The notes under the pieces were generated by a model, which ran no database searches, had not been told where the DNA came from, and saw only the letters and a list, made by a program, of their open reading frames with translations. DNA of 64,000 nucleotides from Paraburkholderia sabiae (GTDB taxonomy: Bacteria; Pseudomonadota; Gammaproteobacteria; Burkholderiales; Burkholderiaceae): positions 3,224,001 to 3,288,000 of the forward strand of contig NZ_CP125295.1 of assembly GCF_030412785.1 (NCBI RefSeq), read 5' to 3'. Positions within the stretch are counted from its first letter, which is position 1. The number at the start of each line of letters is the position of its first letter. Positions 8,895 to 30,020 of this stretch are shown piece after piece. Made by a program: the position numbers and the translations under genes.

Positions 8895-8999
8895 CTGCTC
8901 ATGCTGCCGCTGCTCATGCTGCCGCTGCTCATGCTGCCGCTGCTCATGCTGCCGCTGCTCATGCTGCCGCTGCTCATGCTGCCGCTGCTCATGCTGCGC
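8895..8999. repeat. Seven tandem copies of a 15-bp unit
   Basis: The unit ctgctcatgctgccg is repeated seven times with almost no variation (the last copy ends gcgc). The array lies upstream of the 8818 gene on the minus strand and overlaps the last bases of the LRAT-family gene, whose TGA stop (8989-8991) is supplied by the final unit. A 15-bp unit keeps any reading frame, so copy-number change would alter spacing but not frame. Confidence 0.92.
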
Positions 9000-9519
9000 T
9001 AACAACGGCACGACCTGTTTTCATCCGGTTGCCGACAAAAGCGCTGATGAGGCACAGCACTGCATGCACGCCCGTACGCGGATGCGTGAGGCATGCATGA
9101 ACCTGTTCGCTGCGGCTTTCGCCGAGCAGGCACCATGCGCAGAAGTGCTCGCAGTTGTTCGTCAGCAGGCGATAGCGGTTTTCGCCGAGGCGCGAGCGGG
9201 CGCGCAGCACGGTTTCTTCACCGGAATACTTCGGGAACGGATGCGGACGTACGGAGACGGCGTGACCGTCGGCGAATGCTTCGAGCGCCACTTCTTCGAC
9301 GGGGCCGCGATGTGCGGACTTGGCGAAACCTGCGTAGTGAATGACCTTGCCGCCGCCGACATAAATGCCGTGATGTTCGTAGCCGCGGCGTTGCGTGATC
9401 AGATGGGCACCGAGGACGGGTTCGTCGCTGGAACCGTCGAGCGCGACATCGGCCGATGCATAAGCAGCCGCGCGGTTTGCACCTTGTTCATTGCCTGATT
9501 GTTGGAGGTTGCGGTTCAT
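8989..9519 (-). CDS. LRAT-family (NlpC/P60-like thiol) protein
   Basis: 176 residues from ATG 9519; a TTG eight codons upstream (9543) is the alternative start. The sequence has the LRAT-family permuted papain-like motifs: GAHLITQRRGYEHHGIYVG and VIHYAG with the catalytic histidine, then LLTNNCEHFCAWC with the catalytic cysteine in NCEHF. Eukaryotic members transfer acyl groups or hydrolyse phospholipids; bacterial members are mostly uncharacterised. A hydrophobic C-terminal segment (HAVLCLISAFVG) may bind membrane. A sigma-54-like promoter lies just upstream (9570-9585), suggesting co-regulation with the peptide system that starts on the other side of the intergenic region. Confidence 0.8.
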   Translation of the reverse strand: MNRNLQQSGNEQGANRAAAYASADVALDGSSDEPVLGAHLITQRRGYEHHGIYVGGGKVIHYAGFAKSAHRGPVEEVALEAFADGHAVSVRPHPFPKYSGEETVLRARSRLGENRYRLLTNNCEHFCAWCLLGESRSEQVHACLTHPRTGVHAVLCLISAFVGNRMKTGRAVVSAA

Positions 9520-9569
9520 GGCTTTGCCCGGTATCCGATTCAAAAGGCCAACACTGTTGCAGGCTCTTT

Positions 9570-9585
9570 TGCATCATCCGGACCA
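9570..9585 (-). promoter_or_regulatory. Candidate sigma-54 promoter for the LRAT gene
   Basis: Read on the minus strand, TGGTCCGGATGATGCA keeps GG and GC 12 bases apart and matches the TGG and TGCA ends of the consensus. The predicted start is about 9559, 40 bases before ATG 9519. It is weaker than the promoters at 9890 and 28321. Confidence 0.45.
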
Positions 9586-9889
9586 GGCGACATAAACCTA
9601 TGATTTACCTAAGTATTTGACCATTCATAGGCACTTCGAGACGGCTTGGTGTAGGGATGTGACCAACAGAATTTCGAGCGATTGTGTTGCGCACACACCA
9701 TCACATCCGGCTCGCTGCCCACGCAGCGCGCGAGTGAAGAATGTGTTGGCTATCCCATCGCTTGCCGCGATGCGCTGTTGGAAGGCTGCCAACGCCTTGC
9801 GCCTCTCGCGCGTGACGCGCGCGCGTGCGTGCTTCCGCTATCGCAAGCCCAGCAAGCGACGGCGAGAAAGTACGTGCGCCAGCCGGAAA
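9586..9889. other. Divergent control region between LRAT and first peptide gene
   Basis: No gene is seen. The region carries several half-sites of the candidate activator motif: CCAAC at 9663, GTTGG at 9745, and an inverted pair GTTGG-N7-CCAAC at 9777-9793. The pair is centred about 130 bp upstream of the predicted start of the 9970 transcript, the usual distance for a sigma-54 enhancer. Confidence 0.5.
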
Positions 9890-9906
9890 TTGGCACAACC
9901 CTTGCA
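9890..9906 (+). promoter_or_regulatory. Sigma-54 promoter of the first peptide/PP2C operon
   Basis: TTGGCACAACCCTTGCA is an essentially perfect match to TGGCAC-N5-TTGCA, with GG at 9892-9893 and GC at 9904-9905. The predicted start is about 9917, giving a 53-base leader to ATG 9970. Confidence 0.8.
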
Positions 9907-9969
9907 ACTTAAGTCGCAACTTCCTTTTGAATTGCGGCCGCATGACGGGCGGCCAACCGGAGACACCTC

Positions 9970-10254
9970 ATGGCATCCATCACCATCAGCGATATTCCTC
10001 ACAACCTCGCGCTCGATCGCAAGGCCATGTCCGCGATCAGCGGCGGCGGGGGCGCGCCCTGGGTTTTCGGCTGGATCACGCCGTATGTTCACGACACGCC
10101 GAGCGTCGGACCTGTCGTGAACCTGTACGACGTCACGAACAACTTCTATGCTAACCAGATGATCAACCAGTTCCAGACGGTTGACGTTCGCAACACCGGC
10201 AACAACTCGAGCATCAATGTATCTCCAGACGAACGCAGTACGAACCGGGCTTAG
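9970..10254 (+). CDS. Double-glycine leader peptide 1 (export substrate)
   Basis: 94 residues with ribosome-binding site ggag 9 bases before ATG. Residues 1-26 form the shared leader: hydrophobic start, ISDI at 6-9, LD at 15-16, M20, then GG at 25-26. C39 peptidases cut after such Gly-Gly pairs. The mature part (about 68 residues) is Asn/Val/Tyr rich, has no cysteine, and ends with an INVSP segment also found in the 28785 protein. Five bases separate its stop from the PP2C gene, so the two are probably one operon under the sigma-54 promoter at 9890. The activity (bacteriocin, signal or matrix protein) is unknown. Confidence 0.85.
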   Translation: MASITISDIPHNLALDRKAMSAISGGGGAPWVFGWITPYVHDTPSVGPVVNLYDVTNNFYANQMINQFQTVDVRNTGNNSSINVSPDERSTNRA

Positions 10255-10259
10255 ATGCC

Positions 10260-11030
10260 GTGACCTGTTCCAGTCAATTCCGGTGGGCGTCGGCGGCGCG
10301 CTCCGACACGGGACGCGTGCGCGAGATCAACGAGGACGCGTGCCTCGACCAGCCTCAGCAGGGCCGATGGGCCGTGGCTGACGGCATGGGCGGGCACGAT
10401 GTCGGCGATCTCGCGAGCCAGCTCGTAATCGAGACGCTCGGCCAGTTGCCGGAACAGGCAGGCATCAAGCATTGCATCGCCGAGGCGCGCACGCGCCTGC
10501 AAAACGCCAACCGTCAATTGCGTGAAGAAGCGGCCCGCAGACAGGTTCAACGCATCGGCACGACAGTCGTCGTGCTGCTCGCGTGCGATCGCTTCTGCGG
10601 CTATCTGTGGGCCGGCGACAGCCGCATTTATCTGCTGCGGCAAGGGCAATTGCGGCAGCTCACGCGCGATCACAGCCAGGTGGAAGAACTGCGGCAGTCG
10701 GGCTATCTGACCGAAGAAGAAGCGCGCAATCATCCCGCGCACAACATCATCACGCGCGCCGTCGGCGCGACGGATCATCTCGATCTCGACGAAGACGCGA
10801 TCGAAGTCGCGGACGGCGACGTTTTTCTGCTATGCAGCGACGGCTTGAGCAATGAAGTGACGGACGCAGAAATTCAGCAGACGCTAGCAAGCGTCGATTG
10901 TCTTCATGCACCCGATGAACTTGTCGATATCGCGCTCGCACGCGGCGGCCGCGACAACATCACGGCCGTCGTCGTGCAGGCGGAAGACCCGCAAGCGTCC
11001 GACAGAACGCTGCTCAACCCGGCGCCATAA
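10260..11030 (+). CDS. PP2C-type Ser/Thr protein phosphatase
   Basis: 256 residues from GTG 10260, five bases after the peptide 1 stop, so translation is probably coupled. PPM/PP2C motifs are present: RVREINEDA near residues 19-27, ADGMGGHDVGD with the metal-binding aspartate, LWAGDSRIYLLRQGQL, and CSDGLSNEV and RGGRDNITAVVV at the end. No membrane segment is present, so it is cytoplasmic. Proteins of this class remove phosphate from Ser/Thr on FHA ligands and from kinases. With the kinase at 25910-28081 and the FHA protein at 17685-20213 it completes a phosphorylation switch for the export system. It converges with the sigma-54 activator gene, 6 bp apart. Confidence 0.93.
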   Translation: MTCSSQFRWASAARSDTGRVREINEDACLDQPQQGRWAVADGMGGHDVGDLASQLVIETLGQLPEQAGIKHCIAEARTRLQNANRQLREEAARRQVQRIGTTVVVLLACDRFCGYLWAGDSRIYLLRQGQLRQLTRDHSQVEELRQSGYLTEEEARNHPAHNIITRAVGATDHLDLDEDAIEVADGDVFLLCSDGLSNEVTDAEIQQTLASVDCLHAPDELVDIALARGGRDNITAVVVQAEDPQASDRTLLNPAP

Positions 11031-11036: not shown

Positions 11037-12395
11037 TCATCCCATATCGGCTTCGTCGTTCGCTTCTTCGTCTTCCTTGCGCGCATTCGCTTGCGCGTGC
11101 GCCCGCCGGAAATCCTTCGAATGCAGACCGTGCTTCTTCAGCAACATCTGAAGATGCGACCGGTTCATGTCGACGCGGCGCGCCAGTTCCGCGACCGTAC
11201 CGCCCACTTCCTGCAAACCGCGTTGCAGGAAAGCCTTTTCGGCTTCGTCGCTGGCGGCGCGCTTTGCATCGCTGAGCGACAGCAGGTTCGACACGTTCGC
11301 CGCCGCGCCATTCGTCGCTTCGTTCGCGACGCCGAATATCGACGACGCAACGGGTGACGTTGGCCGCATATCCGTCGGCAGATGGTCGACATCGGCGATA
11401 TCGCCCGCGAGACACGAGATGCGGTACATCACGTTGCGCAATTCGCGGATATTGCCGGGATACGCATAGGTCAGCAGAAAGTCCCTCAATTTAGGCGTGA
11501 TTCTCACGGGGCGACGCTTTAACGCGCCCGCTGCTTCGTCGCCGAAGTACTGGATCAGCAGCGGAATTTCGTCGCGCCTTTCGCGCAACGGCGGCAGCGT
11601 CACATGAATGACGCTCAGCCGGTAAAACAGATCTTCGCGGAACGTGCCCTGCTCGCTCAGCTTGCGCAAATTGCGGTTGGTGGCTGCGACGATACGGGTA
11701 TCGACGCCGATCGGCTCATCCGATCCGACGCGCTGTATTTCATGCGCTTCCAGTACGCGCAGCAGTTTCACTTGCCCTGTCAAAGGTAACTCGCCGATTT
11801 CATCGAGAAAGATCGTGCCCGTATGTGCGCTTTCGAATTTGCCTTTGCGGTCATTCGTTGCGCCCGTAAAAGCGCCCTTTCTATGACCGAACAGTTCCGA
11901 CTCCAGCAGATTGTCGGGAATCGCGCCGCAGTTGACGGAGATAAACGGCTTGTCCGAGCGGCTGCCGTTCGCGTGAATCACCTTCGCCATCAGTTCCTTG
12001 CCCGTGCCGCTCTCGCCGTCGATCAATACGGGAAGATCAGTGGGCGCCGCCTTTTCGGAGATTTCGAGTGCTTCCAGCAGTTTCGGGTTATCGCCGAACG
12101 TCCCTTCGAAAATGAAGCTGCGCGCGAGCAGCGCCTGACGTCGCGCACCACGCGACTGGTCGCCGCCGCGCAACGGCTCGACGACGGCCGCCTGCACGAA
12201 GCGCTCCTTGTGCGACATCTGCATCACTTCGTCGCGCAAGGAACTCGCCTGTTTCAGGAGTTTTTCGATGTCCGCGCGTTCGAGCCGCGACGACCAGCGC
12301 AGCGTCGAGCGCAGAATCTCGATCTTCTCGATCAGGCCCGCATACGAGAGGGGTGAACCGCTTTCTTCAGGCTGCTGGTCAAGTATCTTCATCAT
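11037..12395 (-). CDS. Sigma-54-dependent transcriptional activator
   Basis: 452 residues. A central AAA+ domain (about 95-335) carries Walker A GESGTGKE at 127-134, the sigma-54-contacting GAFTGA loop at 174-179, and Walker B TIFLDEIGE. A Fis-type helix-turn-helix follows near the C-terminus (TVAELARRVDMNRSHLQMLL). The first 90 residues are not a receiver, GAF or PAS domain; they look helical and charged, so the activating signal is unknown. A direct phosphorylation link to the kinase is possible but unproven. Its ATG overlaps the transporter stop (ATGA), making it the last gene of the export operon. It is the obvious activator for the sigma-54 promoters at 9890, 22538, 28321 and 29751. Confidence 0.93.
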   Translation of the reverse strand: MMKILDQQPEESGSPLSYAGLIEKIEILRSTLRWSSRLERADIEKLLKQASSLRDEVMQMSHKERFVQAAVVEPLRGGDQSRGARRQALLARSFIFEGTFGDNPKLLEALEISEKAAPTDLPVLIDGESGTGKELMAKVIHANGSRSDKPFISVNCGAIPDNLLESELFGHRKGAFTGATNDRKGKFESAHTGTIFLDEIGELPLTGQVKLLRVLEAHEIQRVGSDEPIGVDTRIVAATNRNLRKLSEQGTFREDLFYRLSVIHVTLPPLRERRDEIPLLIQYFGDEAAGALKRRPVRITPKLRDFLLTYAYPGNIRELRNVMYRISCLAGDIADVDHLPTDMRPTSPVASSIFGVANEATNGAAANVSNLLSLSDAKRAASDEAEKAFLQRGLQEVGGTVAELARRVDMNRSHLQMLLKKHGLHSKDFRRAHAQANARKEDEEANDEADMG

Positions 12396-15300
12396 GCGCT
12401 CAGCTGTTTCTGGACGAGCTGGTAGTACATGCCCTTCCGGTTGACCAGTTCCTCATGACGCCCCTGCTCGACAATCGCCCCTTCGTAGAGCACCAGAATC
12501 TTGTCGGCGCGCATGATCGTGCTGAGTCGATGCGCGATGATCACGGCCGTGCGTCCCTTGAGGATGTCGTGCATATTGCTGAGGATGTTGCTTTCCGATT
12601 GCGTATCGAGCGCCGACGTCGCTTCGTCGAATACGAGCAGACGTGGATCGTGATACAGCGCGCGCGCAATGCACAGACGCTGTATCTGGCCGCCCGACAA
12701 ACCGATGCCCCGCTCACCCACGATCTGTTCATAACCGAGCGGCAGCTTCGCGATGAACGCATGCGCGTCGGCCATCTTCGCGACTTCCTCGATGCGCCGG
12801 CGATCGGGCGTGTCGTCACCGCTCGCGATGTTCTCGGCAATCGTGCCGGAGAACAGCAGGTTGGTTTGCATCACATAGCCGATCTGCGCGCGATAGAACG
12901 CCTTGTCGATCACGTTCATGTCGTAGCCGTCGACGGTCATCTTGCCGTCGCTCGGCGCATAAAAACCGACCAGTAGCTTCGCGAGCGTGGTCTTGCCCGA
13001 ACCGCTGCGGCCGACAATTGCGATCAGCTCGCCCGGCTTGATCTCGAAGCTGATGTTCTCCAGCACATAGGCGCTGTCGTTGTCGCCGTAGCGGAAGTAC
13101 ACGCCGTTCAGGCTGATTTCGCCTTGCAGATCCGGCAGCATCACGCGCGACGGCAGATCTTCGGGCTTTTGCTCAGGCTCGATATCCAGCACGTCGCCGA
13201 GCCGTTCCATCGCGACGCCTGCATCGTTGAGCATGCTCCACAAGCCGACGAGTCCCATCAACGGCGACAGCACACTGCCCATGAATGCATTGAACGCGAT
13301 GAGTTGACCAATCGTCATCTCGCGCGCCAGCACGAGATTCGCGCCGACCCAGAGAATCGCGATCGTCGTCGCCGCGTTCAGCAGCTGGCTGATAAAGCCG
13401 ATGAAAATGTTGAATGCATGCGCGCGGTACTGCACTTCCAGCGCTTTCGCGTACTTCTTTTCCCAGCGCAAGCGCACGGGCCGCTCGATGCCCATGCCCT
13501 TCACCGTCTCGACACCCGAAAGCGCCTCCATCAGAAACGACTTCGAATCCGTTGCCGCCGCGAACGTTTCGCGCGCATAGTTCTTGATCTTCGGCGTCGC
13601 GACCAACGTCAGCGCCATGATCGGAATGACGAAAGCGATCAGCACGAAAGTCATTTTCGCGTTGTAGAAGAACATGATCGCAAAGTAGATGAACACCATC
13701 AGCAGATTGAGCGCCGTCGTCACCGTCGACTCGGTGAGAAACGCGCGTATCGTCTGGTTCTCCTGGAAGCGCGCAAAAATGTCGCCCGTCTTGCGCTTTG
13801 CAAAGAACGAGAACGGCAGCGACATGGTGTGCCTGAAGAACTGCGACATCATCGCGAAGTCCATGTTGCGCACCATGAAATTCGACAGGTACGCGCGGAT
13901 CATCGACATCAACTGCGAAAACACATTCGAAATGATCAAGCCCAGTATCAGCAGATGCAGCAGGCTGATGTTCTGATGCACGATCACGCCGTCGAGAATG
14001 TTCTGGATGATCAATGGCGGAATCACACCCAGCACCTGAATCACGAAGGTCGCGAGGAACAGATGCAGCAGGATCTTTTTGTACGGCGTCAGATAGCCGA
14101 TAAAGCGCAGCCACGGTGAACGCGACGCGGATAGCTGCACGAGGTTCGGCCCCGGCGCGAAAAGCAGACACGTGCCGCTCCAGCCGCGCTCGAAATCTTC
14201 GAGGCTCAGCTTGCGGAAACCCAGCGCGGGATCGGCGAGCCACACGTGATCTTTCGACACGCCGTACACGATGATGTAGTGATAGCCTTCCCAGTGCACG
14301 ATGAACGGCAGGTCGAAGCCGCGCAACGAATCGAACGTGCATTGCACACCGCGCGCCGAGAAACCGAGCGATTCGCCCGCACGCGCGAGACTGTCGAGCG
14401 TCGCACCCTGCGTCGTCACGTTCGCGAGTTCACGCAGCTTGCCGAGCGTCATCGGAATGCCGTAGTGCTTGCAGATCATCGCGAGACACGCGGCACCGCA
14501 ATCCATTTCTTCGGCCTGCTCGACGAGGCCGAAGCGGCGGATGACCCGTTCGCCAAGCTCAGGCTTCGTGTGCAGGTCGAGCCGCAGCGGCAGCTTGCGT
14601 CTTTGCTCGATGCGTTTTTGCCGGTCCAGTTCGCGGTCCGCGTACTTGATGCGTTCGTCGAGTACTTCGCGCAGTTTCGGATTGCGCTCGAGAATGAAAT
14701 GCACCGTGCGCTCGGGAATCACGAGCAGCCGCGTATCCGTCGTGGCGATGGCGGATGCCGCCTGCTCCTGCCGCATCAGACACGCTTTCTCGCCGAATAT
14801 CTCGCCTTCGCGCAGCGTCGCGAGCGTGTAGTCGTTGCCGTCCTCCTGACGCACGATACGCACTTCGCCTTGCCGCACGACGTAAAGCCGCCGGTCGTCG
14901 CGCGCATCCTGCTTGAGTATCTCCTTGCCTGCCGCGACGCGCTTGACGCCGACGCTGCGCACATACTCTTCCAGTTCCTGCTTGTTGAGTTTGCCGCGCA
15001 AATCGAATAGCTGCGCAACGAATCCGCCTGCCGAGTTGATCGCGACATAGCTCGCGACGAACGCGAGCGCCGCCTGATTGCCCGCGATAATCGGCTCGAT
15101 GGCCGCGCGCGGAATGAACAGCAACTCAGTCTTGCCCGAAGAACGCACCGACGACTCATGCACATACGGACGCAGCATCGCGATGTCGGCGAAGACTTCG
15201 CTTGTCTTGCGCACGCCCATGCTGATCTCTTTGCCGTGCTCCTCGGTGAAAATGCGCACGGAGCCGGTCTTGATCACATAGAGACCGTCTGCCGCGTCGC

Positions 15301-15448
15301 CGACGTTGCACACCGTCTCGCCGAACGAATAGAAACGCGATTGCACATGCTCCGCGATGCGTTCGAGTTCTTCGCGCGTGAACGGCGAAAGAATCTCGAC
15401 CGTCGACAGGAAGTCGGCAGTGGTAGGCGTGGTTTGCGGTGCATCCAT
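12392..15448 (-). CDS. C39-peptidase ABC exporter with two cNMP-binding domains
   Basis: 1018 residues, longer than usual peptidase-containing ABC transporters (about 700). Two cyclic-nucleotide-binding-like domains come first (about 15-140 and 155-275). A C39 peptidase follows, with Gln311, catalytic Cys317 (EEMDCGAAC), His390 (GYHYIIVYGV) and Asp406 (ADPALG). Six membrane helices (about 450-735) and an ATPase domain come next: Walker A GRSGSGKT 811-818, signature LSGGQ 915-919, Walker B LLVFDE 935-940. Such proteins cut double-glycine leaders in the cytoplasm and pump the mature peptide out. The layout resembles NHLP-type and cyanobacterial HetC/PteB-like exporters. It sits 34 bp after the isomerase gene and overlaps the activator gene. 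Confidence 0.94.
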   Translation of the reverse strand: MDAPQTTPTTADFLSTVEILSPFTREELERIAEHVQSRFYSFGETVCNVGDAADGLYVIKTGSVRIFTEEHGKEISMGVRKTSEVFADIAMLRPYVHESSVRSSGKTELLFIPRAAIEPIIAGNQAALAFVASYVAINSAGGFVAQLFDLRGKLNKQELEEYVRSVGVKRVAAGKEILKQDARDDRRLYVVRQGEVRIVRQEDGNDYTLATLREGEIFGEKACLMRQEQAASAIATTDTRLLVIPERTVHFILERNPKLREVLDERIKYADRELDRQKRIEQRRKLPLRLDLHTKPELGERVIRRFGLVEQAEEMDCGAACLAMICKHYGIPMTLGKLRELANVTTQGATLDSLARAGESLGFSARGVQCTFDSLRGFDLPFIVHWEGYHYIIVYGVSKDHVWLADPALGFRKLSLEDFERGWSGTCLLFAPGPNLVQLSASRSPWLRFIGYLTPYKKILLHLFLATFVIQVLGVIPPLIIQNILDGVIVHQNISLLHLLILGLIISNVFSQLMSMIRAYLSNFMVRNMDFAMMSQFFRHTMSLPFSFFAKRKTGDIFARFQENQTIRAFLTESTVTTALNLLMVFIYFAIMFFYNAKMTFVLIAFVIPIMALTLVATPKIKNYARETFAAATDSKSFLMEALSGVETVKGMGIERPVRLRWEKKYAKALEVQYRAHAFNIFIGFISQLLNAATTIAILWVGANLVLAREMTIGQLIAFNAFMGSVLSPLMGLVGLWSMLNDAGVAMERLGDVLDIEPEQKPEDLPSRVMLPDLQGEISLNGVYFRYGDNDSAYVLENISFEIKPGELIAIVGRSGSGKTTLAKLLVGFYAPSDGKMTVDGYDMNVIDKAFYRAQIGYVMQTNLLFSGTIAENIASGDDTPDRRRIEEVAKMADAHAFIAKLPLGYEQIVGERGIGLSGGQIQRLCIARALYHDPRLLVFDEATSALDTQSESNILSNMHDILKGRTAVIIAHRLSTIMRADKILVLYEGAIVEQGRHEELVNRKGMYYQLVQKQLSA

Positions 15449-15482: not shown

Positions 15483-16235
15483 TCAGAGCGCTTCGATGAT
15501 GTGTTCCTGCGCGCGCGTCATCAGCCACTGTTCGCGCAACAGCCGTTTGATTTCCGACGCGACATCCGCGTCGAGTTGTGCGGGATACTTCGCCGTCACC
15601 GCGAAAATCTCGAAGCACGATCTATCGGGCGAAGCGAACGGCCCCAGCAGATCGCCGACTGACGCGTTGAAGATCTTCGCCTCGATATCGGGCTTCAGCG
15701 AACCGCGCAGCACCTTGCCGATCACGCCGCCCGAATCCTTCGTATCGGCAATGGAATGCTCGCGCGCCATCTCGGCGAATGCATCGGGATCGTCGTGCAG
15801 ATACGAGATCATTTCCTTCGCCTTGCCTTCGTCGTCGAGCAGGATGTGGCTCACTTCGAGCGCATCGAACTTCGGCGAATTCATCGAAAAGTACTCTTCG
15901 ATTTCGCCGTCGCTGCCGACCTTGTCGAGCATCTTTTCCTGAAACAGGCCGTCCGTGATGAACGCCTCGAAGTCGTCGAGACTGATCTTCAGCGTGTCCA
16001 GATACTGGTTCATATCGGCGGCGCGATGCAGCCCACGCACGCGCCGGAACTGATCGGCGCGCTCCTGGATTTCGTCGGCGCTCACGCTCACGCCGTGCTT
16101 CTTCGCGGCGTGCACGGCCAGCTTGTCGCGTACCATCTGCTCGATCAGGCTTTCGAACTGGCCCGTGAGTTTCAACAGACGTATGAATTCGCCGACATCC
16201 ACGACTTCATCATCGATTCGTACGATCGCGGTCAT
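15483..16235 (-). CDS. Parvulin-type (PpiC/SurA-like) peptidyl-prolyl isomerase
   Basis: 250 residues from ATG 16235, which has a gaggag ribosome-binding site; the reading frame stays open upstream but has no homology there. The N-terminal 120 residues are helical, SurA-like (MTAIVRIDDEVVDVGEFIRL). The parvulin core starts at VSHILL and continues through AREHSIADTKDSGGVIGKV to a C-terminal helix. There is no signal peptide, so it probably acts in the cytoplasm or goes out with the exporter. Isomerases of this kind are encoded beside C39 transporters in cyanobacterial double-glycine export clusters, where a chaperone-like role for substrates is assumed. It is the middle gene of the operon. Confidence 0.88.
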   Translation of the reverse strand: MTAIVRIDDEVVDVGEFIRLLKLTGQFESLIEQMVRDKLAVHAAKKHGVSVSADEIQERADQFRRVRGLHRAADMNQYLDTLKISLDDFEAFITDGLFQEKMLDKVGSDGEIEEYFSMNSPKFDALEVSHILLDDEGKAKEMISYLHDDPDAFAEMAREHSIADTKDSGGVIGKVLRGSLKPDIEAKIFNASVGDLLGPFASPDRSCFEIFAVTAKYPAQLDADVASEIKRLLREQWLMTRAQEHIIEAL

Positions 16236-22675: not shown

Positions 22676-22700
22676 CCAACATATGGCGCAAAACTGTTGG
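22676..22700. promoter_or_regulatory. Candidate activator binding site (enhancer)
   Basis: Inverted repeat CCAAC-N15-GTTGG, centred 161 bp upstream of the predicted start. The same motif, spacing and distance occur before the 28424 gene. It would suit the Fis-type helix-turn-helix of the sigma-54 activator. Confidence 0.5.
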
Positions 22701-22784
22701 ATTGATAAAGACACCAACAAGAGCAACGATGAAGATGAACAAAAAGAGCATTAAAACAGGCCGCGATTGAGCACTTACGTTCGT

Positions 22785-23213
22785 TCACTTCGCGATCACT
22801 GTGATCTTCTTCGAATAGACAGGCGGGTTGTGCGGAATGTGATTTTCGTCGCCCATCAGCAACTGGATGGTGTGCTTGCCGGGCGGCAAGGTGATCGTCG
22901 TTTCCGTTTCGCCCGCGCCGAAATGCAGATGCTGGCGATCCGACGGAATCTCCTGATCCATCGGAGGCAAGTCCGTATCGATCAACAGATGGTGGTGGCC
23001 CGTGTTCGGATACTTGACGCCCTTCGGCGCAACGCCCATGTAACGCAAGCCGAACCACACGCGAAACGGCTTGTTGGCGGGCACGACCTGTCCGTCGTTC
23101 GGATAGCCGATATAGGCGTAGGCATCCTTGGGCGCGGGCGTCGGCCCGGCGAATGCCACATTCATCGAAGCGAGAGCGGCAAGCGCCGCAGCGGCGACAA
23201 CGATCCTGATCAT
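22785..23213 (-). CDS. DUF4399 exported protein, copy A
   Basis: 142 residues from ATG 23213, which has a ggagag ribosome-binding site. A signal peptide ends near ASMNVAFA, so the protein is periplasmic or secreted. The mature part is a single DUF4399-type domain with the conserved stretches NTGHHHLLIDTDLPPMDQEI and HFGAGETETTITLPPGKH, rich in His and Asp, which suggests metal binding. It is adjacent to a second copy (23276-23701) about 70% similar by eye. The function of the family is not known to me. Its position inside the peptide-export locus suggests a link but may be chance. Confidence 0.85.
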   Translation of the reverse strand: MIRIVVAAAALAALASMNVAFAGPTPAPKDAYAYIGYPNDGQVVPANKPFRVWFGLRYMGVAPKGVKYPNTGHHHLLIDTDLPPMDQEIPSDRQHLHFGAGETETTITLPPGKHTIQLLMGDENHIPHNPPVYSKKITVIAK

Positions 23214-23275: not shown

Positions 23276-23701
23276 TCACTTCACGATGATGGTGATCTTC
23301 TTCGAATAGACGGGCGGGTTATGCGGCACGTGATTGAAGTCGCCGAGCAGCAATTGCAGCGTGTGCTTGCCGGGCGGCAGTTCGATGCGCGCATCCGTTT
23401 CGCCTGCGCCAAAATGCAGGTGATTCCGGTCAGAGGGAATTTCCTGATCCATCGGCGGCAGGTCCGTATCGATCAGCAGATGGTGATGCCCCGTGTTCGG
23501 CACATTGACGCCTTTAGGACACACGCCCATGTTGCGCAAGCCCATTCGCACCCAGAGCTTGCCGCCCGTAATCACGGTGCCGTCTGCCGGCCAGATGATG
23601 TAGACCTCGGCGCCCGGCGGCGACGGCGTCGGGCCTGCAAACACCTGCGCCGAAGCGAGAAAGAGCGCGCCGATAGCCGCGAGCCTTATTCTTGTTTGCA
23701 T
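23276..23701 (-). CDS. DUF4399 exported protein, copy B
   Basis: 141 residues from ATG 23701 (ribosome-binding site gggag); the longer open frame upstream is not supported. The signal peptide ends SAQVFA, followed by GPTPSPPGAEVYIIWPADG. The same HHHLLIDTDLPPMDQE and HLHFGAGET signatures occur as in copy A, plus one cysteine (NMGVCPKGV) that copy A lacks. It lies 62 bp upstream of copy A, so the two are probably one operon created by tandem duplication. It is divergent from the caspase/FGE gene across a 263-bp gap in which I see no other feature. Confidence 0.85.
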   Translation of the reverse strand: MQTRIRLAAIGALFLASAQVFAGPTPSPPGAEVYIIWPADGTVITGGKLWVRMGLRNMGVCPKGVNVPNTGHHHLLIDTDLPPMDQEIPSDRNHLHFGAGETDARIELPPGKHTLQLLLGDFNHVPHNPPVYSKKITIIVK

Positions 23702-23964
23702 TGCGCATCTCCCAGGGAGGGTCAGTGCTGCTTGCTTCCGCTTTAGCTTAGGACGTAACTTGTTAAAAAGATACGCCACGCTCGTTAACCTTCTGACGTT
23801 CTCACTGCGTGCTATCTTTTGTAAGGGTGATCTGCGCGAAGGGGTGCCCGGCAACGGTATCGCGCGTGTCGGGCAGCATGGCGAACGGCAACGGTTTTCG
23901 ATCGAGCCGCTTCGTCCGATGACGAGGTTCTGTCCAGAACTTCCAGAACAACCAGGATCTGAAA

Positions 23965-25878
23965 ATGTGGCGAAAACTCCTGCTGGTATGCATGTTCGGG
24001 GCACTCCAGATGCGAGGAGCCGACGCGCAAACGCTGCCCCGCGCCGCGCACGATGCCACTTCCAACGTTGCCGGAAACGGCGCACTGAATGCCCGCACGG
24101 CAACGGCGGCGCGCAAGGTCGCGCTGGTGATCGGTAATGCCAGTTATGGTTTTGGTGCGCTGCCCAATGCAGCACGCGATGCGCAAAGCGTCGCCGATAT
24201 GTTGCGCGCGCAAGGCTTCGATGTCGTGCTTCGTACCGATGCGAACGCCGAGCAGATGCACGATGCACTGGCCGACTTCGGCCGTCGCTTGCAGCCGGGC
24301 GGCACGGCGCTGTTCTATTTCGCGGGCCATGGCTTGCAGGCGGGAACGGGGACGCAGCTGACATCCGTTACTGCCGATGCGCGCGCGCCCGCGTCGTTGA
24401 TGACAGAGAGCATCGATCTGTCGAATGTACTCGCAACGCTTGCCGCCCCGCGCGCGCATGCAGTCAATCTGATCGTGCTGGACGCATGTCTCACGCAACC
24501 ATTCGAGCCTTCTCGTCTGACGATGCCCTTGCCGGCGCAAACGCTCATTGCGTACGCGACGACGCCAGGCGGCGAGGCCGCCGATGGCACCCGTCACGGC
24601 ATTTTCACGGGCGCGTGGCTGCGTGAAATGCGCCGTGCGCCGAGCGAACCTGTCGACACGATGTTCGCCCTTGTCGCGCGACGCGTCGCGGAAGAAACGG
24701 GTGGAGCGCAAAGCCCTTGGTCCGCGTCGTCATTGAGTGGAAAGGAAAGGGTATTCGCTTCGAATCCTCTATCGACGCAAGCAGACGATCAGCCCAACCT
24801 CGTTGTTGCGTTGGATAGCCGCGGCATTCTGCCTAAAGACAGCAACGAGCAATATGAGCTGACGTTCTGGGAGTCGATCAAGGACAGCAACTACGCAAGC
24901 GACTATGAAGCGTATTTAAAGGCGTATCCGAACGGCCGCTTTGCGACGCTCGCAAAGGCGCGTATCGACAGGCTCAAGTCGAGTTCCCAGGCAACGCCGC
25001 CAGCGACGCATGCAGCGCCCGCAGCCGCGCCGTCGCATCCTGCTGCTGCGGCGGCTCCCACGCCTGCGCCAGCACCGGCTCCGCAACCAGCGCCTAAAGC
25101 GGCCGCAACGCCAGCCCCCGCACCTACGCCTGCATCCGCAGCACCCGCGCGCGCAGCGGCCAGTGGCGAGAGCAAGGACTGCGCGGCCTGCCCGGTGATG
25201 ATCTCGCTGCCGGCGGGCTCCTTCACGATGGGCAGCAACGTGGGCGACCCGTCCGAGAAGCCGCCGCATCACGTGACCATTTCAGCGCCGTTCGCGATCG
25301 GCAAATACGAAGTGACAGTCGAGCAATGGAACGCCTGCGCCGACGTCAACGGATGCCCGAAGCTCGCTCCCGAAAGCAACTCCGTGAAGAACGCACCCGC
25401 GCGCGATCTCAGTTGGGACGACGCGCAGGCTTACGTGAAGTGGCTGAGCAAGGTGACAGGCAAGACCTATCGTCTGCCGACGGAAGCCGAATGGGAATAT
25501 GCGGATCGCGGGGGCACGACGACGAAGTACTGGTGGGGCGACCAACCGCGCAAAGGGATGGCGAATTGCAAGGACTGCGGCGATCCGTACCACAATCAGG
25601 CACCCGAACCGGTCGGTTCATTCGCGGCCAATCCCAACGGCTTGTACGACATGAACGGCGGCGTGTGGGAATGGGTCAGCGACTGCTGGCATAACTCATT
25701 CCAGAGCGCTCCCGCCGATGGCCACGCGTGGGACGCGCCGGGCTGCAACATGCGCGTGATTCGCGGCGGCTCGTGGCGCGAAGGAAGCGACTATATGCTC
25801 AGTTCGACGCGCTTCAAGTACAGCCAAAGCGTACGTCAGTCGCAAGACGGCTTTCGGGTCGTCAAGGAACTCAAGTGA
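23965..25878 (+). CDS. Exported caspase-like / FGE-sulfatase domain fusion
   Basis: 637 residues. A signal peptide (1-22, ending GADA) is followed by a C14 caspase-like domain (about 50-265) with catalytic His122 (YFAGHGLQ) and Cys175 (VLDACLTQ). A region with [20 protein letters not shown] comes next, then a long Pro/Ala linker (about 340-390) and a formylglycine-generating-enzyme-like domain (about 395-637; [35 protein letters not shown]). It would work in the periplasm. Such fusions occur in signalling loci; the FGE-like part often acts as a binding fold rather than as a sulfatase activator. It converges with the kinase gene, 31 bp apart. Its target, possibly an export component, is unknown. 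Confidence 0.88.
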
Positions 25879-25909: not shown

Positions 25910-28081
25910 TCATTGCGCGCGCGCCTTGCTCGTGATCTGCGCGAAGTCCGCGACGATATGGTCCTGTCCGTATTTGGCGGCAAGCTGTTTGAGCCGCGTA
26001 TCGAGTGCACGCAGATAGTCCGCACGCGATTCGCTCTCGGGACGCGGTGCGTCGAATAGCGGCGCGGGCGTGATGAGCAGTACAACCATCTCCTGACCGA
26101 ACGGCTTCGAAATGATCCAGTCGCCGCCGCTTCCCACCGTCGCCGAGTAATTCGCGGGCGCCTGATTGCCCTTCACACGCGGCCCCGGCACCATATGCAC
26201 GACACTGCCGTCGAGCACGTAATAGTCGATGTTCACATACGAGTCGTATCCCGGCGTCCTCACATCGACGACAAGCGGATCGCCCTCGGTCAGCACGCCA
26301 TTCGGCATGCGCGCCGTCAGCGATGCGATATGTCCTGCCTGCCAGTTGCGCGTCCAGTAAGAACCGAGTTGTTTGAGTACGTCGCATTTGTCGCTGCTCA
26401 CGTGCTGCACATCGACCTTCGTCGACGCGACGCCGGGCAAAGTCGACAGACGCTCGTTGACCTGCGCCTCGCCATGCAGCGGCACGAATCCGCGTACCTG
26501 TACCGCACGATCCTGAATCGACGCGGCAAGCGCCGAACATGGCAATGATGCGAGCGCCGCGGTGACGGCCGAGAGTGTCGGCGGCGCTGGCGTGCTGGCA
26601 GGCGGCGCGGACGCGACCTCGGTCGACGACGGCGCAGCAGGTGTAACGGGCAATACTGGCGACGCGCTGGCGACCTGCGATCCCGCTGCATCGGACGCGG
26701 CGTTCGATTGCTGCGCTGCGTTTTCCTGATCGAGCGTTTGCGACGCGCGATAGAAGTACAGCGCGCCGCCCGCTGCGCATGCGAGTGCGAGCCCCACCAC
26801 GCCCGACTTCATCAGCATGCCGGCGCGATCGCTGTGTCCCGACGACTTCGACGCAGACGCACGCTCCTGCGCGCCGAACTCTTCGACGAAACGCGACACC
26901 GTTGGCGTACGCGCCTTGCGGTCGAATGCGAGCGCCGCGCGTAACGCGCGCCACTGACGGTTGCCCAGATTGTCCGGCCGCTGGGGCTGACGATTCGACG
27001 CGCGCGCCTGCGTCGCCGATTGACGGTCGAACGGATGACGGCCCGTCAGAAGCTCATACGTGATGCAGCCGAGTGCGTAGATGTCGTCGCGCGGATCGGG
27101 CTCTAGATGTTCGAGCATCTCCGGGCTCGCATAGGCGGGCGTCAACGCGCCGAGGCTGCCCGGATCGAACACGGTGGCATCGCTCTCTTCTTCGGGCCGC
27201 TGAAACACGCGCGCGATGCCGAAGTCGATGACCTTGACCTCGCCCGTGTCGGTGAGAAACACGTTGGCCGGTTTGAAATCGCAATGCACGAAGCCGCGTT
27301 CGTGCGCGTATGCGAGCGCGCTCGACATGCCGCGCACGATCGGCAGCGCTGACTGAACGGGCATGCCCTTGAAATCCTGTGTGCGCAGTATCTGGCTGAG
27401 CGGCTTGCCGGACAGATACTCCATCGTCAGATAGACGATTGCGCCGTCGCGGTCGAAGTCGTACACCGTGACGATGTTACGGTGCGCAAGCACCTGCGCC
27501 TTGCGTGCCTCGCGCTGCAGTGCGATCAGTGATTTCGGATTGCCGCGGAACTGCGTGTTCAGCACCTTGATCGCGAGGTAGGGCTTGCGATCCGATGCTT
27601 CGAGCTTGCGCAGATCGAGCGCCTTGTACACGGTGCCCATGCCGCCCACGCCCAGACACTCTTCGAGCACGAAGCGGTTGTTGAGCGTGTCGCCCGTGCC
27701 TTTTACCTGATCGAGATTCGATGGCGTGGCTTCGCTGGTGCGTGTGGGAGGAGGCGCGACAAGATGGTCGGGCACCGTCTGCATGCGCGTTTCCTCGCCG
27801 CCCGCCGCGGCGAGATGCGAAACGGGCATCTGTTCGATACGGCGGCGCACTTCCGCGTAAAGATCAGGAGGCAGCGGCTTCCTGACATGCGCTTCGCCGA
27901 GTATTTCGAGCAGACGAGCCGAACCGACACCTTCCGTCGTGAGCGTGCTGTCGAGTTGAGCGACGAACGCGTCCTGCGTGAGCGCGCCGCTCTGAAAGTC
28001 CCGAATCACGTGCGCAAGACTGGCCATGTGTTCAAAGCGCTGCAGCTCCCGTTGGTCGAAGAATTTCCCTGTCGTAACCAA
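25910..28081 (-). CDS. Transmembrane Ser/Thr protein kinase with DUF4384 domain
   Basis: 723 residues from TTG 28081; ATG 28027 (MASLAHVIRDF) is an alternative start. After a helical N-terminus, the Hanks-type kinase domain (about 135-400) shows GVGGMGTVYKA, Lys172 in AIKVL, HCDFKPANVF with Asp268, DFG at 286-288 and YASPEMLE. The usual HRD arginine is Cys here, a change seen in kinases with altered activation. One membrane helix (about 427-445) leads to a Pro/Ala-rich linker and a periplasmic DUF4384 region (ASLTARMPNGVLTEGDPLVV; YYVLDG). It is the likely partner of the PP2C phosphatase and the FHA protein. It is divergent from the peptide 3 gene. Confidence 0.92.
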   Translation of the reverse strand: MVTTGKFFDQRELQRFEHMASLAHVIRDFQSGALTQDAFVAQLDSTLTTEGVGSARLLEILGEAHVRKPLPPDLYAEVRRRIEQMPVSHLAAAGGEETRMQTVPDHLVAPPPTRTSEATPSNLDQVKGTGDTLNNRFVLEECLGVGGMGTVYKALDLRKLEASDRKPYLAIKVLNTQFRGNPKSLIALQREARKAQVLAHRNIVTVYDFDRDGAIVYLTMEYLSGKPLSQILRTQDFKGMPVQSALPIVRGMSSALAYAHERGFVHCDFKPANVFLTDTGEVKVIDFGIARVFQRPEEESDATVFDPGSLGALTPAYASPEMLEHLEPDPRDDIYALGCITYELLTGRHPFDRQSATQARASNRQPQRPDNLGNRQWRALRAALAFDRKARTPTVSRFVEEFGAQERASASKSSGHSDRAGMLMKSGVVGLALACAAGGALYFYRASQTLDQENAAQQSNAASDAAGSQVASASPVLPVTPAAPSSTEVASAPPASTPAPPTLSAVTAALASLPCSALAASIQDRAVQVRGFVPLHGEAQVNERLSTLPGVASTKVDVQHVSSDKCDVLKQLGSYWTRNWQAGHIASLTARMPNGVLTEGDPLVVDVRTPGYDSYVNIDYYVLDGSVVHMVPGPRVKGNQAPANYSATVGSGGDWIISKPFGQEMVVLLITPAPLFDAPRPESESRADYLRALDTRLKQLAAKYGQDHIVADFAQITSKARAQ

Positions 28082-28174: not shown

Positions 28175-28199
28175 CCAACAGCTTTGAGCGTTCAGTTGG
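28175..28199. promoter_or_regulatory. Candidate activator binding site (enhancer)
   Basis: CCAAC at 28175-28179, 15 bases, GTTGG at 28195-28199. The centre lies 161 bp upstream of the predicted peptide 3 start, identical to the peptide 2 arrangement. A further GTTGG-N7-CCATC overlaps it (28195-28211). Confidence 0.5.
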
Positions 28200-28320: not shown

Positions 28321-28337
28321 TTGGCACACCCTATGCG
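28321..28337 (+). promoter_or_regulatory. Sigma-54 promoter of peptides 3 and 4
   Basis: TTGGCACACCCTATGCG, GG at 28323-28324 and GC at 28335-28336. The predicted start is 28348, giving a 76-base leader to ATG 28424. Confidence 0.75.
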
Positions 28338-28347
28338 TTGTAAGGCC

Positions 28348-28423: not shown

Positions 28424-28693
28424 ATGAGCGCACTGATGATCAAAGACCTGTCCATCGCCGAACAACTCGACAGCAAGGCCATGAAGGCTGTCCGCGGCGG
28501 CTTCGTTGCCTACCCGTCGTTCCCGAGCCTCAAGTTCGACTTCGACAACAGCAAGACGGTCGACGCCCAGCAGCTTGTAAACCAAGGTCTGAGCATCAAC
28601 AACGTGAGCGACAACAACAACGCGTTCGTCTCGCATCTGCCGACCACGATCAAGCCCACGCAGACGGCCCACAACAACGTCACCGTCTACTAA
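28424..28693 (+). CDS. Double-glycine leader peptide 3 (export substrate)
   Basis: 89 residues from ATG 28424; longer upstream frames are not supported. The leader is nearly identical to that of peptide 2 (MSALMIKDLS, then LD at 15-16, M20, GG at 25-26). The mature 63 residues begin FVAYPSFPSLKFDFDNSK and end in Asn-rich sequence with TIKPTQTAHNNVTVY. Roughly three quarters of residues match peptide 2, with most differences in the mature part, so the two may be variants with the same job. The 28785 gene follows in 91 bp and is probably co-transcribed. Confidence 0.88.
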   Translation: MSALMIKDLSIAEQLDSKAMKAVRGGFVAYPSFPSLKFDFDNSKTVDAQQLVNQGLSINNVSDNNNAFVSHLPTTIKPTQTAHNNVTVY

Positions 28694-28784: not shown

Positions 28785-29069
28785 ATGTCGTCCATCATGA
28801 TTCGCGATATCGACGGCGAGCGCACACTCGGCCGCCACGAAATGACCGCCGTGTCGGGCGGTACGGGAACACCCGGCCTCACGGGCAACTCGTGGCTAAA
28901 CGGCCTCGGCCCGGTCGCCAACGTCAACATCGGCATCAACCAGAACATCACGCAAGCGCAGTTCATCAACGTCGAAACGTTGAACAACAGCATCGTCGGC
29001 CCTGGCGTGAAGCTGCCGAACATCAACGTCAGCCCGAAGCTCTGGGCCGAGACGAACGCTGTCGTCTGA
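28785..29069 (+). CDS. Double-glycine leader peptide 4 (export substrate)
   Basis: 94 residues with ribosome-binding site ttggaga. The leader 1-26 is MSSIMIRDIDGERTLGRHEM followed by TAVSGG; Gly replaces the usual Asp at 16. The mature 68 residues are Asn/Gly/Val rich (VANVNIGINQNITQAQFINV) and contain NINVSP near the end, matching peptide 1 (SINVSP). There is no cysteine. It appears to belong with peptide 1 as one mature-sequence subgroup, against peptides 2 and 3. It has no clear promoter of its own and is probably transcribed with peptide 3. Confidence 0.82.
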   Translation: MSSIMIRDIDGERTLGRHEMTAVSGGTGTPGLTGNSWLNGLGPVANVNIGINQNITQAQFINVETLNNSIVGPGVKLPNINVSPKLWAETNAVV

Positions 29070-29074
29070 CGGCG

Positions 29075-29246: not shown

Positions 29247-29471
29247 ATGCCCAAGCTCGTCATCAAGGATCTTCCCGAAAGCGTCGAACTCGATCGCGCG
29301 GCGATGACCGCCATCGTCGGCGGCGCACGAACGGGCGGCCGCTTCTTCGGCGTGACCGCACAGGCGTTGCCGGCAGCGACGCGCGTCGTCGATTATCCGG
29401 TGGGATTCCCGACGGCAGCGCGTCAGCCTGTCGACGAACGCATACCGCCGCAGAGCCTTTTGCGGAAATAA
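29247..29471 (+). CDS. Double-glycine leader peptide 5 (export substrate)
   Basis: 74 residues. The leader is MPKLVIKDLPESVELDRAAM then TAIVGG with GG at 25-26, a very good match to the family. The mature 48 residues (ARTGGRFFGVTAQALPAATR) are basic and not Asn-rich, so the cargo differs from peptides 1-4. The ribosome-binding site is weak (tggaac). It lies 177 bp after peptide 4. No convincing sigma-54 site precedes it; a TATACT hexamer at about 29154-29159 may be a -10 element. Confidence 0.7.
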   Translation: MPKLVIKDLPESVELDRAAMTAIVGGARTGGRFFGVTAQALPAATRVVDYPVGFPTAARQPVDERIPPQSLLRK

Positions 29472-29493
29472 CGGCTGCTGGTACTTTCGCTTT

Positions 29494-29527
29494 CACACGC
29501 TGCTTGCCTGGTGGCTTGCGGCGTGTG
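29494..29527 (+). terminator. Terminator-like hairpin after peptide 5
   Basis: The 7-bp stem cacacgc/gcgtgtg (29494-29500 with 29521-29527) has a 20-base loop and is followed by a short T-run. Confidence 0.45.
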
Positions 29528-29703
29528 TTTGCCTGCTTGACTGCTTTAAATGGCGCGACGCACGCTATTCACTCTTCACGCGTCTGTTTTATTCCGCCAA
29601 CTCCGCGCGCCGGACGGTGCGATCATCGCCAACACTTTCTCCATTCGCTCGCGGCCAATCTGGCGTATACGCTTCGGCAGCGCGTGTTATTCCCTTGTGC
29701 AGC

Positions 29704-29738
29704 GGCGCTTTTAAAGCGCAATGTGCGATGCCGCACAT
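29704..29738. repeat. Two adjacent perfect palindromes
   Basis: The palindrome gcgctttTaaagcgc (about 29705-29719) is followed by atgtgcg-atgc-cgcacat (29721-29738). They end 12 bp before the sigma-54 promoter at 29751. They may be a repressor site or an RNA structure of upstream transcripts. Confidence 0.5.
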
Positions 29739-29750
29739 ATCGGCTTCAAA

Positions 29751-29767
29751 TCGGCACAGGCGTTGCG
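29751..29767 (+). promoter_or_regulatory. Sigma-54 promoter of peptide 6
   Basis: TCGGCACAGGCGTTGCG, GG at 29753-29754 and GC at 29765-29766, with GGCAC and TTGC matching the consensus. The predicted start is about 29778, 45 bases before ATG 29823. Confidence 0.65.
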
Positions 29768-29822
29768 GCGTAGAAAATGAGCGCTGAATCGTGCTCGTCA
29801 AACACGCATCAGGAGAACTGCC

Positions 29823-30020
29823 ATGAAAGCCACTGTCGTCATCAAGGATCTACCCGAGCCGACCGACCTCGAACGGAAAGAAACCGCGCTGACGCCCGAA
29901 AGGATGAAACGCATTGTCGGCGGAAGCAGCGCTGTGACTGTCGATGGTGTGCGGACTCGCGCCGTCGATGATGTCGCGGGTAGGTCCGCTATGTTCGAAG
30001 GGCGGGTGAAGGGGCGATGA
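29823..30020 (+). CDS. Double-glycine leader peptide 6 (export substrate, variant leader)
   Basis: 65 residues with ribosome-binding site aggagaac identical to that of peptide 3. The leader starts MKATVVIKDLPEP and has LE at 16-17, but carries about eight extra residues (ETALTPER) before M28 and ends IVGG at 31-34. The mature part is only 31 residues (SSAVTVDGVRTRAVDDVAGR) and basic, without Asn-rich sequence. It has its own sigma-54 promoter. The longer leader and short cargo could make it a signal peptide or a decaying member. Confidence 0.65.
   Translation: MKATVVIKDLPEPTDLERKETALTPERMKRIVGGSSAVTVDGVRTRAVDDVAGRSAMFEGRVKGR

Follow-up and report, generated by a model that had tools for sequence, protein, structure and literature searches.

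The locus at positions 8989 to 30020 of a 64,000-nt stretch of the Paraburkholderia sabiae genome (9.9 Mb, four contigs) on balance probably encodes a type I secretion system that works in one step and is devoted to a family of small matrix proteins. The whole stretch is referred to as the window, and all coordinates are positions in it. The locus combines an exporter of the ATP-binding cassette (ABC) type that carries a C39 peptidase domain, genes for six small proteins with a double-glycine (GG) leader, a sigma-54 activator, a Hanks kinase, a PP2C phosphatase and an FHA protein. A preliminary description of this DNA had joined these parts, together with an HlyD adaptor, an outer-membrane channel, a parvulin and a protein with caspase and FGE (formylglycine-generating enzyme) type domains, into one system. 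All of the named parts, including two domains of the cyclic-nucleotide-binding (cNMP) type in the exporter, were recovered by Pfam, and six leader open reading frames (ORFs) were found as claimed, five strong ones and one weak one. The view that they form one system has good support from their co-occurrence across genomes, their synteny and an enhancer and -24/-12 promoter architecture that is common to the leader genes.

Starting from the lowest coordinates, the parts are an LRAT gene, GG protein B and the PP2C gene. On the minus strand, the reading order is A1 (a GG protein), TolC-type channel, double-FHA protein, HlyD, parvulin, C39 exporter and sigma-54 activator. Beyond A1 there are two DUF4399 genes, the caspase-FGE gene and the Hanks kinase, followed by a row of the GG genes A2, C, D and D2.

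The six GG-leader ORFs are the family B protein (9970..10254, plus strand, leader 51.4 bits; GGAPWVFGWI...NQMINQFQ...), the family A proteins A1 (22185..22454, minus strand, 55.8 bits) and A2 (28424..28693, 53.2 bits) and, on the plus strand like A2, the proteins of families C (28785..29069, 33.3 bits) and D (29247..29471, 40.7 bits) and the ORF D2 (29823..30020). D2, with a leader of 34 residues, is the weakest of the six (27.7 bits with the main profile and 13.2 bits, as a partial match, with a smaller profile called A1) and has homologues in the related loci L141 and L145. A strict regular expression for GG leaders overlooked true leaders, and a looser scan and a profile were used instead. 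This profile was built from 123 distinct leaders, picked by regular expression from the same loci, and has the consensus MxxLxIKDLxxxxxLDRxAMxAVRGG. In the window and 80 related loci (the best 80 of 256) it found 183 ORFs with at least 20 bits, 177 of them in the 80 loci. The complement control yielded none at this level, none with at least 8 bits and four with at least 5 bits, and thus the GG-leader ORFs are not due to chance. None of the six reaches a curated Pfam or NCBIfam cut-off. Matches below the cut-off are GRASP_targ_2 for D (29247-29471, E 0.026), the trimeric-adhesin Trp ring for the mature part of A1 (22185-22376, E 0.0087) and ComC for B (9970-10254, E 0.12), and none of the 48 listed homologues of A1 carries a functional name.

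The pattern of substitutions supports a coding function for family D, where 94 of 114 substitutions relative to five relatives fall on third codon positions. Support is less clear for C (3, 1 and 8 substitutions at the three codon positions compared to L141) and for A2 (6, 2 and 8). For D2 the figures are 3, 12 and 12 compared to L141 and 5, 2 and 14 compared to L145; because of this pattern, D2 is the least secure of the GG ORFs.

Leaders accompany the exporter well beyond this locus. At least one is found in 75 of the 80 related loci, the exceptions being L003, L063, L071, L072 and L074. L003 is a contig of 15.9 kb. A search of the whole genomes covered the other four, and each of these genomes has 7 to 18 leaders outside the fetched stretch (E 0.01), some of them only 2-5 kb past its end in the genome of L072. 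In L077 and L080 there is one weak leader each nearby, with genome totals of 13 and 5. Elsewhere in the P. sabiae genome, the smaller profile detected two convincing leaders, at C1:4753211 (E 1e-7) and C1:4562943 (E 0.0014), with 150 of 177 candidates scored.

The exporter itself (12392..15448, minus strand, assigned by Pfam and alignment) consists of two cNMP-type domains, a C39 peptidase domain, an ABC membrane domain and an ATPase domain. The C39 triad (C317/H390/D406) is present in all 81 aligned rows, and the Walker A, LSGGQ, Walker B and H-loop motifs are all present in the window protein. By its triad, its fusion to an ABC transporter and the GG substrates encoded in the same genome, the protein classifies as a C39 peptidase-containing ABC exporter (PCAT). 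With 150 of 204 candidates scored, this is the sole locus in the genome that matches the exporter over both its C39 and cNMP parts. Among the matches listed, its nearest named relative is from Paraburkholderia sp. Tr-20389 (98% identity). HlyB-type exporters have a C39-like domain without the catalytic Cys; assignment to this type was rejected, as the catalytic Cys is present and TIGR01846 gave 628.1 bits with a cut-off of 725.55. Also rejected was an NHLP/Nif11 (NHLM) bacteriocin system, for which the curated cut-offs for exporter, HlyD and leader were not reached: NHLM_micro_ABC1 of NCBIfam gave 569.6 bits for the exporter (cut-off 853.3), NHLM_micro_HlyD gave 86.4 bits (cut-off 156.2), and the substrates matched neither an NHLP nor a Nif11 leader model.

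In CRP-type domains, an arginine of the phosphate-binding cassette holds the cyclic phosphate. At its usual position, domain 1 of the exporter has His-Glu (with an alignment ambiguity of one residue) and domain 2 has Gln, each in 81 of 81 rows. An identity as cyclic AMP (cAMP) binding, CRP-type domains was rejected, as the canonical arginine is missing in both. The cNMP-type domain of HetC binds ppGpp with a dissociation constant near 59 uM, while cAMP gave no protection or significant effect, according to the accessible text of PMC10986499. Because the arginine is missing in both domains and HetC binds ppGpp, it is a fair guess that the two domains bind a nucleotide signal other than cAMP.

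Three further parts would complete the export route, namely a parvulin of the PpiC/SurA-like type (15483..16235, minus strand, start codon picked by eye; PF00639, E 4.3e-10 on 15483-16331), an HlyD adaptor (16334..17725, minus strand, longest ORF with approximate start; PF13437, E 6.5e-20) and an outer-membrane efflux protein of the TolC type (20420..21964, minus strand, start probably downstream of 21964; PF02321, E 1.5e-49).

Co-inheritance was analysed in 118 genomes, 70 of the genus and 48 of other genera, with counts that hold at the thresholds used. The exporter (E 1e-250) and PP2C (E 1e-50) occur in the same 52 genomes, and the leaders (E 0.001), the Hanks kinase (E 1e-100) and the FHA protein (E 1e-60) in the same 53, while 65 genomes, 17 of them from the same genus, have none of the five. 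The five sets are identical except for G060, where leaders, kinase and FHA protein are present and exporter and PP2C are unmatched. The assembly of G060 is a draft of 450 contigs with 86% completeness. Its FHA match stops 890 bases short of a contig end, in the direction in which exporter and PP2C would be expected. In an order-level sample of 399 genomes, exporter and leaders were found in the same three, two of which (the P. sabiae genome and G038) already belong to the set of 118. A regular occurrence of the exporter without leader peptides, which had been set beforehand as refuting, is not seen: all 52 exporter genomes have leader matches. The all-or-none distribution thus bears out the proposal of a single system.

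Gene order is also conserved. Counting only loci with enough flank, the activator and the parvulin are present in 79 of 79 loci each, HlyD in 73 of 79, the FHA protein in 71 of 76, TolC in 70 of 75, PP2C in 74 of 78, DUF4399 in 66 of 73 and LRAT in 64 of 78. The caspase/FGE protein occurs in 65 of 80 loci and additionally in L101 and L102, and the kinase in four of 80, most loci being too short to reach its position. L101 (Caballeronia sp. SBC2) and L102 (Burkholderia stagnalis) have all eleven system parts that were queried. Related loci were found in Caballeronia, Cupriavidus, Noviherbaspirillum and Aromatoleum.

Promoters of the sigma-54 type, modelled as TGGCAC-N5-TTGC-like sites within 350 nt of a GG gene, precede most of the leader genes. 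Of 182 GG genes, 121 are preceded by a site with no more than one mismatch and 25 by one with two mismatches, and 36 lack a site. This is mostly explained by the position within a row, since sites of the first kind precede 119 of 142 genes at the head of a row and only 2 of 40 later ones (within 600 nt of another GG gene). In 111 of 120 promoters with the site 60-130 nt ahead of the start codon (60 of 66 for A-type genes and 51 of 54 for family B), TGTTGG or its complement is found within 260 nt upstream, mostly about 128 and 147 nt from the -24 element in A and 115 and 147 nt in B. The density of these half-sites is 7.9 per kb compared to 0.46 per kb overall, and the commonest 6-mer occurs in 102 of 114 less redundant promoter sequences compared to at most 52 in shuffles; the promoter sequences are related, so that the half-site counts are not independent events.

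Sigma-54 sites are weak on their own and become specific only together with half-sites. With at most one mismatch, there are 171 sites in all loci and 100 in the reversed control, and the exact form TTGGCAC-N6-TGC occurs 15 times in the genome and 25 times in the control. Three of these 15 sites have at least two half-sites 85-170 nt upstream; all three are in the window, before GG genes. Three of the other 12 have one half-site and nine have none, the background chance of at least one being 0.13. The combined motif (at most two mismatches and a half-site 85-165 nt upstream, a range fixed after the spacing had been seen) has exactly four matches in the window, each preceding a GG gene. Before B, two GTTGG 32 bp apart and one CCAAC (9744..9793, plus) are followed by TGGCACAACCCTTGC (9891..9905, plus, no mismatch). 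Before A1, there are CCAACA-N13-TGTTGG and one GTTGG (22676..22718, minus) and TGGCACAGCCTATGC (22539..22553, minus, one mismatch). A2 has CCAACA-N13-AGTTGG (28175..28199, plus) and TGGCACACCCTATGC (28322..28336, plus, one mismatch), and D2 has two CCAAC (29597..29633, plus) and CGGCACAGGCGTTGC (29752..29766, plus, one mismatch). A CCAACA-N14-AGTTGG pair is found in L095. Sites of the -24/-12 kind, with one and two mismatches, likewise lie about 80 nt ahead of the two distant GG genes of this genome, together with half-sites.

The activator gene (11037..12395, minus strand; PF00158, E 2.3e-70) overlaps the exporter ORF by 4 nt. Its product is an AAA+ protein with a C-terminal helix-turn-helix, assigned by eye, and the motif GAFTGA (78 of 81 rows; GSFTGA in the other 3), and it classifies as a sigma-54 enhancer-binding protein, with upstream sites preceding the -24/-12 promoters. 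The 100 N-terminal residues contain no Pfam sensor domain, and 58 of the first 105 residues are conserved in at least 95% of the 81 rows. Being encoded next to the exporter, this protein is the obvious candidate for binding the TGTTGG sites. The system had been called sigma-54-switched, which is strongly supported for the substrate genes and does not extend to a direct site before the genes of the exporter operon; these could be reached by sigma-54 only through read-through from the promoter at 22553 (minus strand), across A1. The terms cyclic nucleotide, forkhead, HlyD and type I secretion do not occur in the main texts of papers on the RpoN transcriptome of P. phymatum (PMC5748707, PMC5979394).

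The Hanks Ser/Thr kinase (25910..28081, minus strand; PF00069, E 1.6e-41), the PP2C phosphatase (10260..11030, plus strand, longest ORF; PF13672, E 6.9e-16) and the double-FHA protein (17685..20213, minus strand; PF00498, E 2.3e-30, two stretches) are likely to constitute one functional module. The kinase has its catalytic motifs, as read in the window protein, and a C-terminal part with a match to DUF4384 below the cut-off (17 bits versus 27). Metal-site motifs of PP2C are conserved in 76 rows and FHA motifs in 73; the two FHA domains are followed by a TPR-like part, and one hydrophobic segment was assigned by eye. The preliminary description had spoken of a phosphorylation-gated exporter. 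Its claim holds to the extent that kinase, PP2C and FHA protein are inherited together with the exporter; for the gating as such, this co-inheritance is the evidence, and an action of the phospho-switch on the exporter itself is somewhat less likely than not.

The mature parts of the GG proteins have an unusual composition. Pooled, they contain 14.1% Asn compared to 3.1% in 13 other proteins from the window, 4.9% K+R+E compared to 16.5% and 0.2% Cys compared to 0.7%, with K, R, E and L depleted. In a BLAST comparison with composition correction switched off, 177 of 182 mature parts fall into one group, to which composition may contribute. The substrates belong to families A (often in tandem), B (adjoining PP2C in the window), C and D, and an E type occurs in relatives in rows of four or five; tandem near-identical copies are found in the relatives. 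Family B is conserved across genera. In L142, L143 and L144, near-identical E-type GG proteins (SNYNVGNVNAAFGGGFASPAIVVAPVTQTDTK...) follow gene D, with eight, five and eight copies in the parts of these regions that were retrieved, the last being cut off. Family D (29247-29471; L141-L145) is nearly unchanged in close relatives, in which the adjacent A and C are divergent or absent, and it may have a role different from that of the Asn-rich proteins. That most mature proteins are Asn-rich, poor in Cys and often encoded in tandem suggests that they are subunits of a matrix or fibre rather than toxins.

We propose the following mechanism. The activator would recognise TGTTGG half-sites located some 100-170 bp ahead of the -24 element and drive sigma-54 transcription of the GG-leader genes, distant copies included. 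The C39 domain would cut the leader after GG, as expected from its family membership, and the ABC exporter, HlyD and the TolC-type channel would pass the mature protein out, with the parvulin assisting in folding. We consider these two steps, taken together, highly likely. The cNMP-type domains, lacking the canonical cAMP arginine, may bind another nucleotide signal, and a phospho-switch of kinase, PP2C and double-FHA protein, suggested by their co-inheritance, may act on the activator or the exporter in a manner similar to type VI secretion. Outside the cell, the Asn-rich, Cys-poor proteins would assemble as matrix or fibre subunits, for which we see an even chance. The most far-reaching version, a kinase/PP2C/FHA-gated, nucleotide-sensing type I exporter that secretes amyloid-like matrix subunits as part of a genome-wide sigma-54 regulon and is a one-step counterpart of curli in beta-proteobacteria, is on the doubtful side.

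Several observations weigh against a matrix secretion system of this kind. Not all substrates fit the role of a fibre, because D and D2 are basic and not Asn-rich (Asn+Gln 6% and 0%). No window substrate matches curlin (PF07012) or another amyloid family, AlphaFold2 gives no confident fold (predicted local distance difference test, pLDDT, 50 for B and 69 for A, the latter with a predicted template modelling score of 0.29), and fold and sequence searches of PDB with the substrates had no match. Three substrates of L115 match PF07012 with E 0.003-0.008 (16.5-17.9 bits, cut-off 20.7), which is hardly above stray matches below the cut-off such as the adhesin Trp ring (E 0.0087) and Glyco_hydro_45 (E 0.02). 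There is no site with at most one mismatch directly upstream of the TolC, FHA, HlyD and ABC genes, and a GC-rich stem after A1, across which read-through would have to pass, is readable by eye, although the terminator scan lists none there on that strand. In five Noviherbaspirillum/Herbaspirillum loci, no HlyD, FHA or TolC gene was detected in the neighbourhood of the exporter, and all misses of these three genes fall in Noviherbaspirillum or Herbaspirillum. The synteny counts describe close relatives (exporter identity at least 79%), because the loci are the best 80 of 256. The leaders of a related cluster from Nostoc sp. HK-01 look alike by eye, yet have about -3 bits with the leader profile.

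As an observation in its own right, the three substrates of L115, from the genome of L074 (Noviherbaspirillum massiliense), are short GG proteins in which a repeat resembling that of curlin (NVSVIGQNGIGNVASVTQ) can be seen, and their sub-cut-off PF07012 matches also count in favour of a fibre role.

One alternative is that the GG proteins are bacteriocins or microcins that kill competing strains. The combination of a C39 exporter with small GG-leader proteins is the classical class II arrangement; related cyanobacterial clusters have been called bacteriocin clusters in the accessible part of PMC3140520, and single members have sub-cut-off matches to Bacteriocin_IIc (E 0.084) and to the ComC model that was found for B. 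However, A2, C and D are separated by only 91 and 177 nt, too little to accommodate an immunity gene there, and the pooled mature proteins are rich in Asn, low in Lys/Arg and nearly free of Cys. The eight near-identical copies in the fetched stretches of L142 and L144, the retention of B across genera and the near identity of D among five close relatives also speak against killing, which we regard as quite unlikely. It is unlikely, too, that the mature proteins, above all D, act as extracellular signals to cells or to a plant host. The strong purifying selection on D, which is not Asn-rich, would fit such a role, and HetC, the nearest studied cNMP-type exporter, acts in cell differentiation, with signal export being proposed (accessible text of PMC10986499), but most of the substrates are multicopy Asn-rich proteins of 60-80 residues and thus unlike known peptide signals.

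A different view would be that the locus consists of two modules inherited side by side, a GG exporter under sigma-54 control and a set of kinase, PP2C, FHA and caspase genes unrelated to it. In the window, no match to the combined enhancer and -24/-12 motif was found ahead of either the kinase or the caspase gene, and in L102 the kinase lies on the opposite side of the exporter. The two sets are interleaved, however, with the FHA gene flanked by TolC and HlyD in each of the 71 loci where all three were found and the PP2C ORF beginning 5 nt past substrate B in the window, and kinase, FHA protein and PP2C follow the presence or absence of the exporter in the 118 genomes, G060 apart. We consider such a two-module arrangement very unlikely, and prefer a single secretion system for small matrix proteins.

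This secretion system shares features with several known ones. In the type VI threonine-phosphorylation pathway, PpkA, PppA and Fha are a kinase, a phosphatase and an FHA protein that accompany a secretion machine. The set of Hanks kinase, PP2C and FHA protein is alike, but the machine here is a type I exporter; no type VI component was found among the 20 window proteins that were scanned with Pfam, no wider search having been made. The small secreted proteins of curli (CsgA) are rich in Asn/Gln and use a route through Sec and CsgG. The richness in Asn/Gln is shared, while a GG leader and a C39 exporter are used here instead of Sec and CsgG. GG leaders in Gram-negative bacteria were reportedly surveyed by Dirix et al. 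in 2004.

The exporter core of cNMP-C39-ABC protein, HlyD and parvulin matches the cyanobacterial "long-type" clusters. In the accessible text of Wang et al. 2011 (PMC3140520), groups I, II and VI of these have the same combination of CAP_ED/cNMP-type, C39 and ABC domains with HlyD, SurA/rotamase and GG precursors, and the word kinase is absent from the main text. The substrates here belong to other families than the long-type ones. In a plasmid cluster of Nostoc sp. HK-01 (L099), HlyD and PpiC are present and the exporter is 41% identical over residues 262-1017. Beside this long-type C39 exporter, there are four tandem, nearly identical GG proteins of 65 residues. HetC of Nostoc PCC 7120 has the same cNMP-type, C39 and ABC domains, but the exporter here has two cNMP-type domains, and a membrane-fusion gene and GG substrates are encoded nearby, neither of which is known near hetC according to the accessible text of PMC10986499. 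The closest functional precedent would be PteB of Synechococcus elongatus, a C39 transporter that is needed for efficient secretion of the small GG proteins EbfG1-4, of which EbfG1-3 formed amyloid in a heterologous test (accessible text of PMC4997328 and PMC9981879). As described there, control is by a secreted inhibitor and type II/IV pilus genes, unlike the sigma-54 control proposed here. No description of this system in Burkholderiales was found in the literature searched, with most subscription papers and bioRxiv preprints outside its reach, and the same search found no description of the sigma-54/enhancer control, the kinase/PP2C/FHA module or the substrate families.

Three further kinds of gene belong to the locus. 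The LRAT-domain protein (8989..9543, minus strand; PF04970, E 6.5e-24) has invariant HHG and NNCEHF motifs across 65 aligned rows. The DUF4399 genes are both on the minus strand; the first copy (23276..23704, approximate 5' end) was assigned by PF14347 (E 1.4e-37) and the second (22785..23213) by its likeness to the neighbouring copy, without a Pfam scan of its own in frame. The protein with caspase (C14) and FGE/SUMF1-type domains (23965..25878, plus strand) was assigned by Pfam. Formylglycine-generating enzymes have a Cys pair near the end of the domain. No such pair was seen by eye, and because of this the FGE-type domain may be binding rather than catalytic.

Scans with Rfam and for tRNAs had no match in the window, and sigma-70 promoters and terminators were no more frequent than in shuffles. 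In a defence-system search, only kinase and RtcR-type AAA domains matched among the matches listed (for the kinase, the best 25 of 32). A perfect 15-bp tandem repeat with 6.9 copies (GCTGCTCATGCTGCC) at 8894-8997 adjoins the LRAT gene and has Ala/His-rich or Cys-rich frames. Further outside, a tandem 50-bp unit (8004-8157, 3.1 copies, 98% match) contains a palindrome around GGCGCTTTAGCGCC and is REP-like by eye. A peptidase M30 protein (5757-7541; PF10460, E 5e-199) is encoded upstream of the locus and is found in 4 of the 80 related loci, all from close relatives. The product of 38610-39326 is short and DNA-binding-like and ends in a long tail rich in Lys/Ala (AKKAA repeats), resembling by eye H-NS plus a histone-H1-like part.

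In summary, it appears that soil bacteria of the Paraburkholderia group have one cluster that switches on, cuts and exports small Asn-rich proteins, which are possibly building material of an outer matrix. The unit is carried by 53 of the 70 sampled genomes of the genus. With the leader and the enhancer/promoter motif, substrate genes can be sought in other genomes by a simple rule. The cluster supplies candidate substrates for a cNMP-type C39 exporter, which are lacking for HetC, so that a soil bacterium now allows a direct test of what exporters of this type carry. Should the phospho-switch act on the exporter, the logic of kinase, phosphatase and FHA protein known from type VI would extend to type I secretion.

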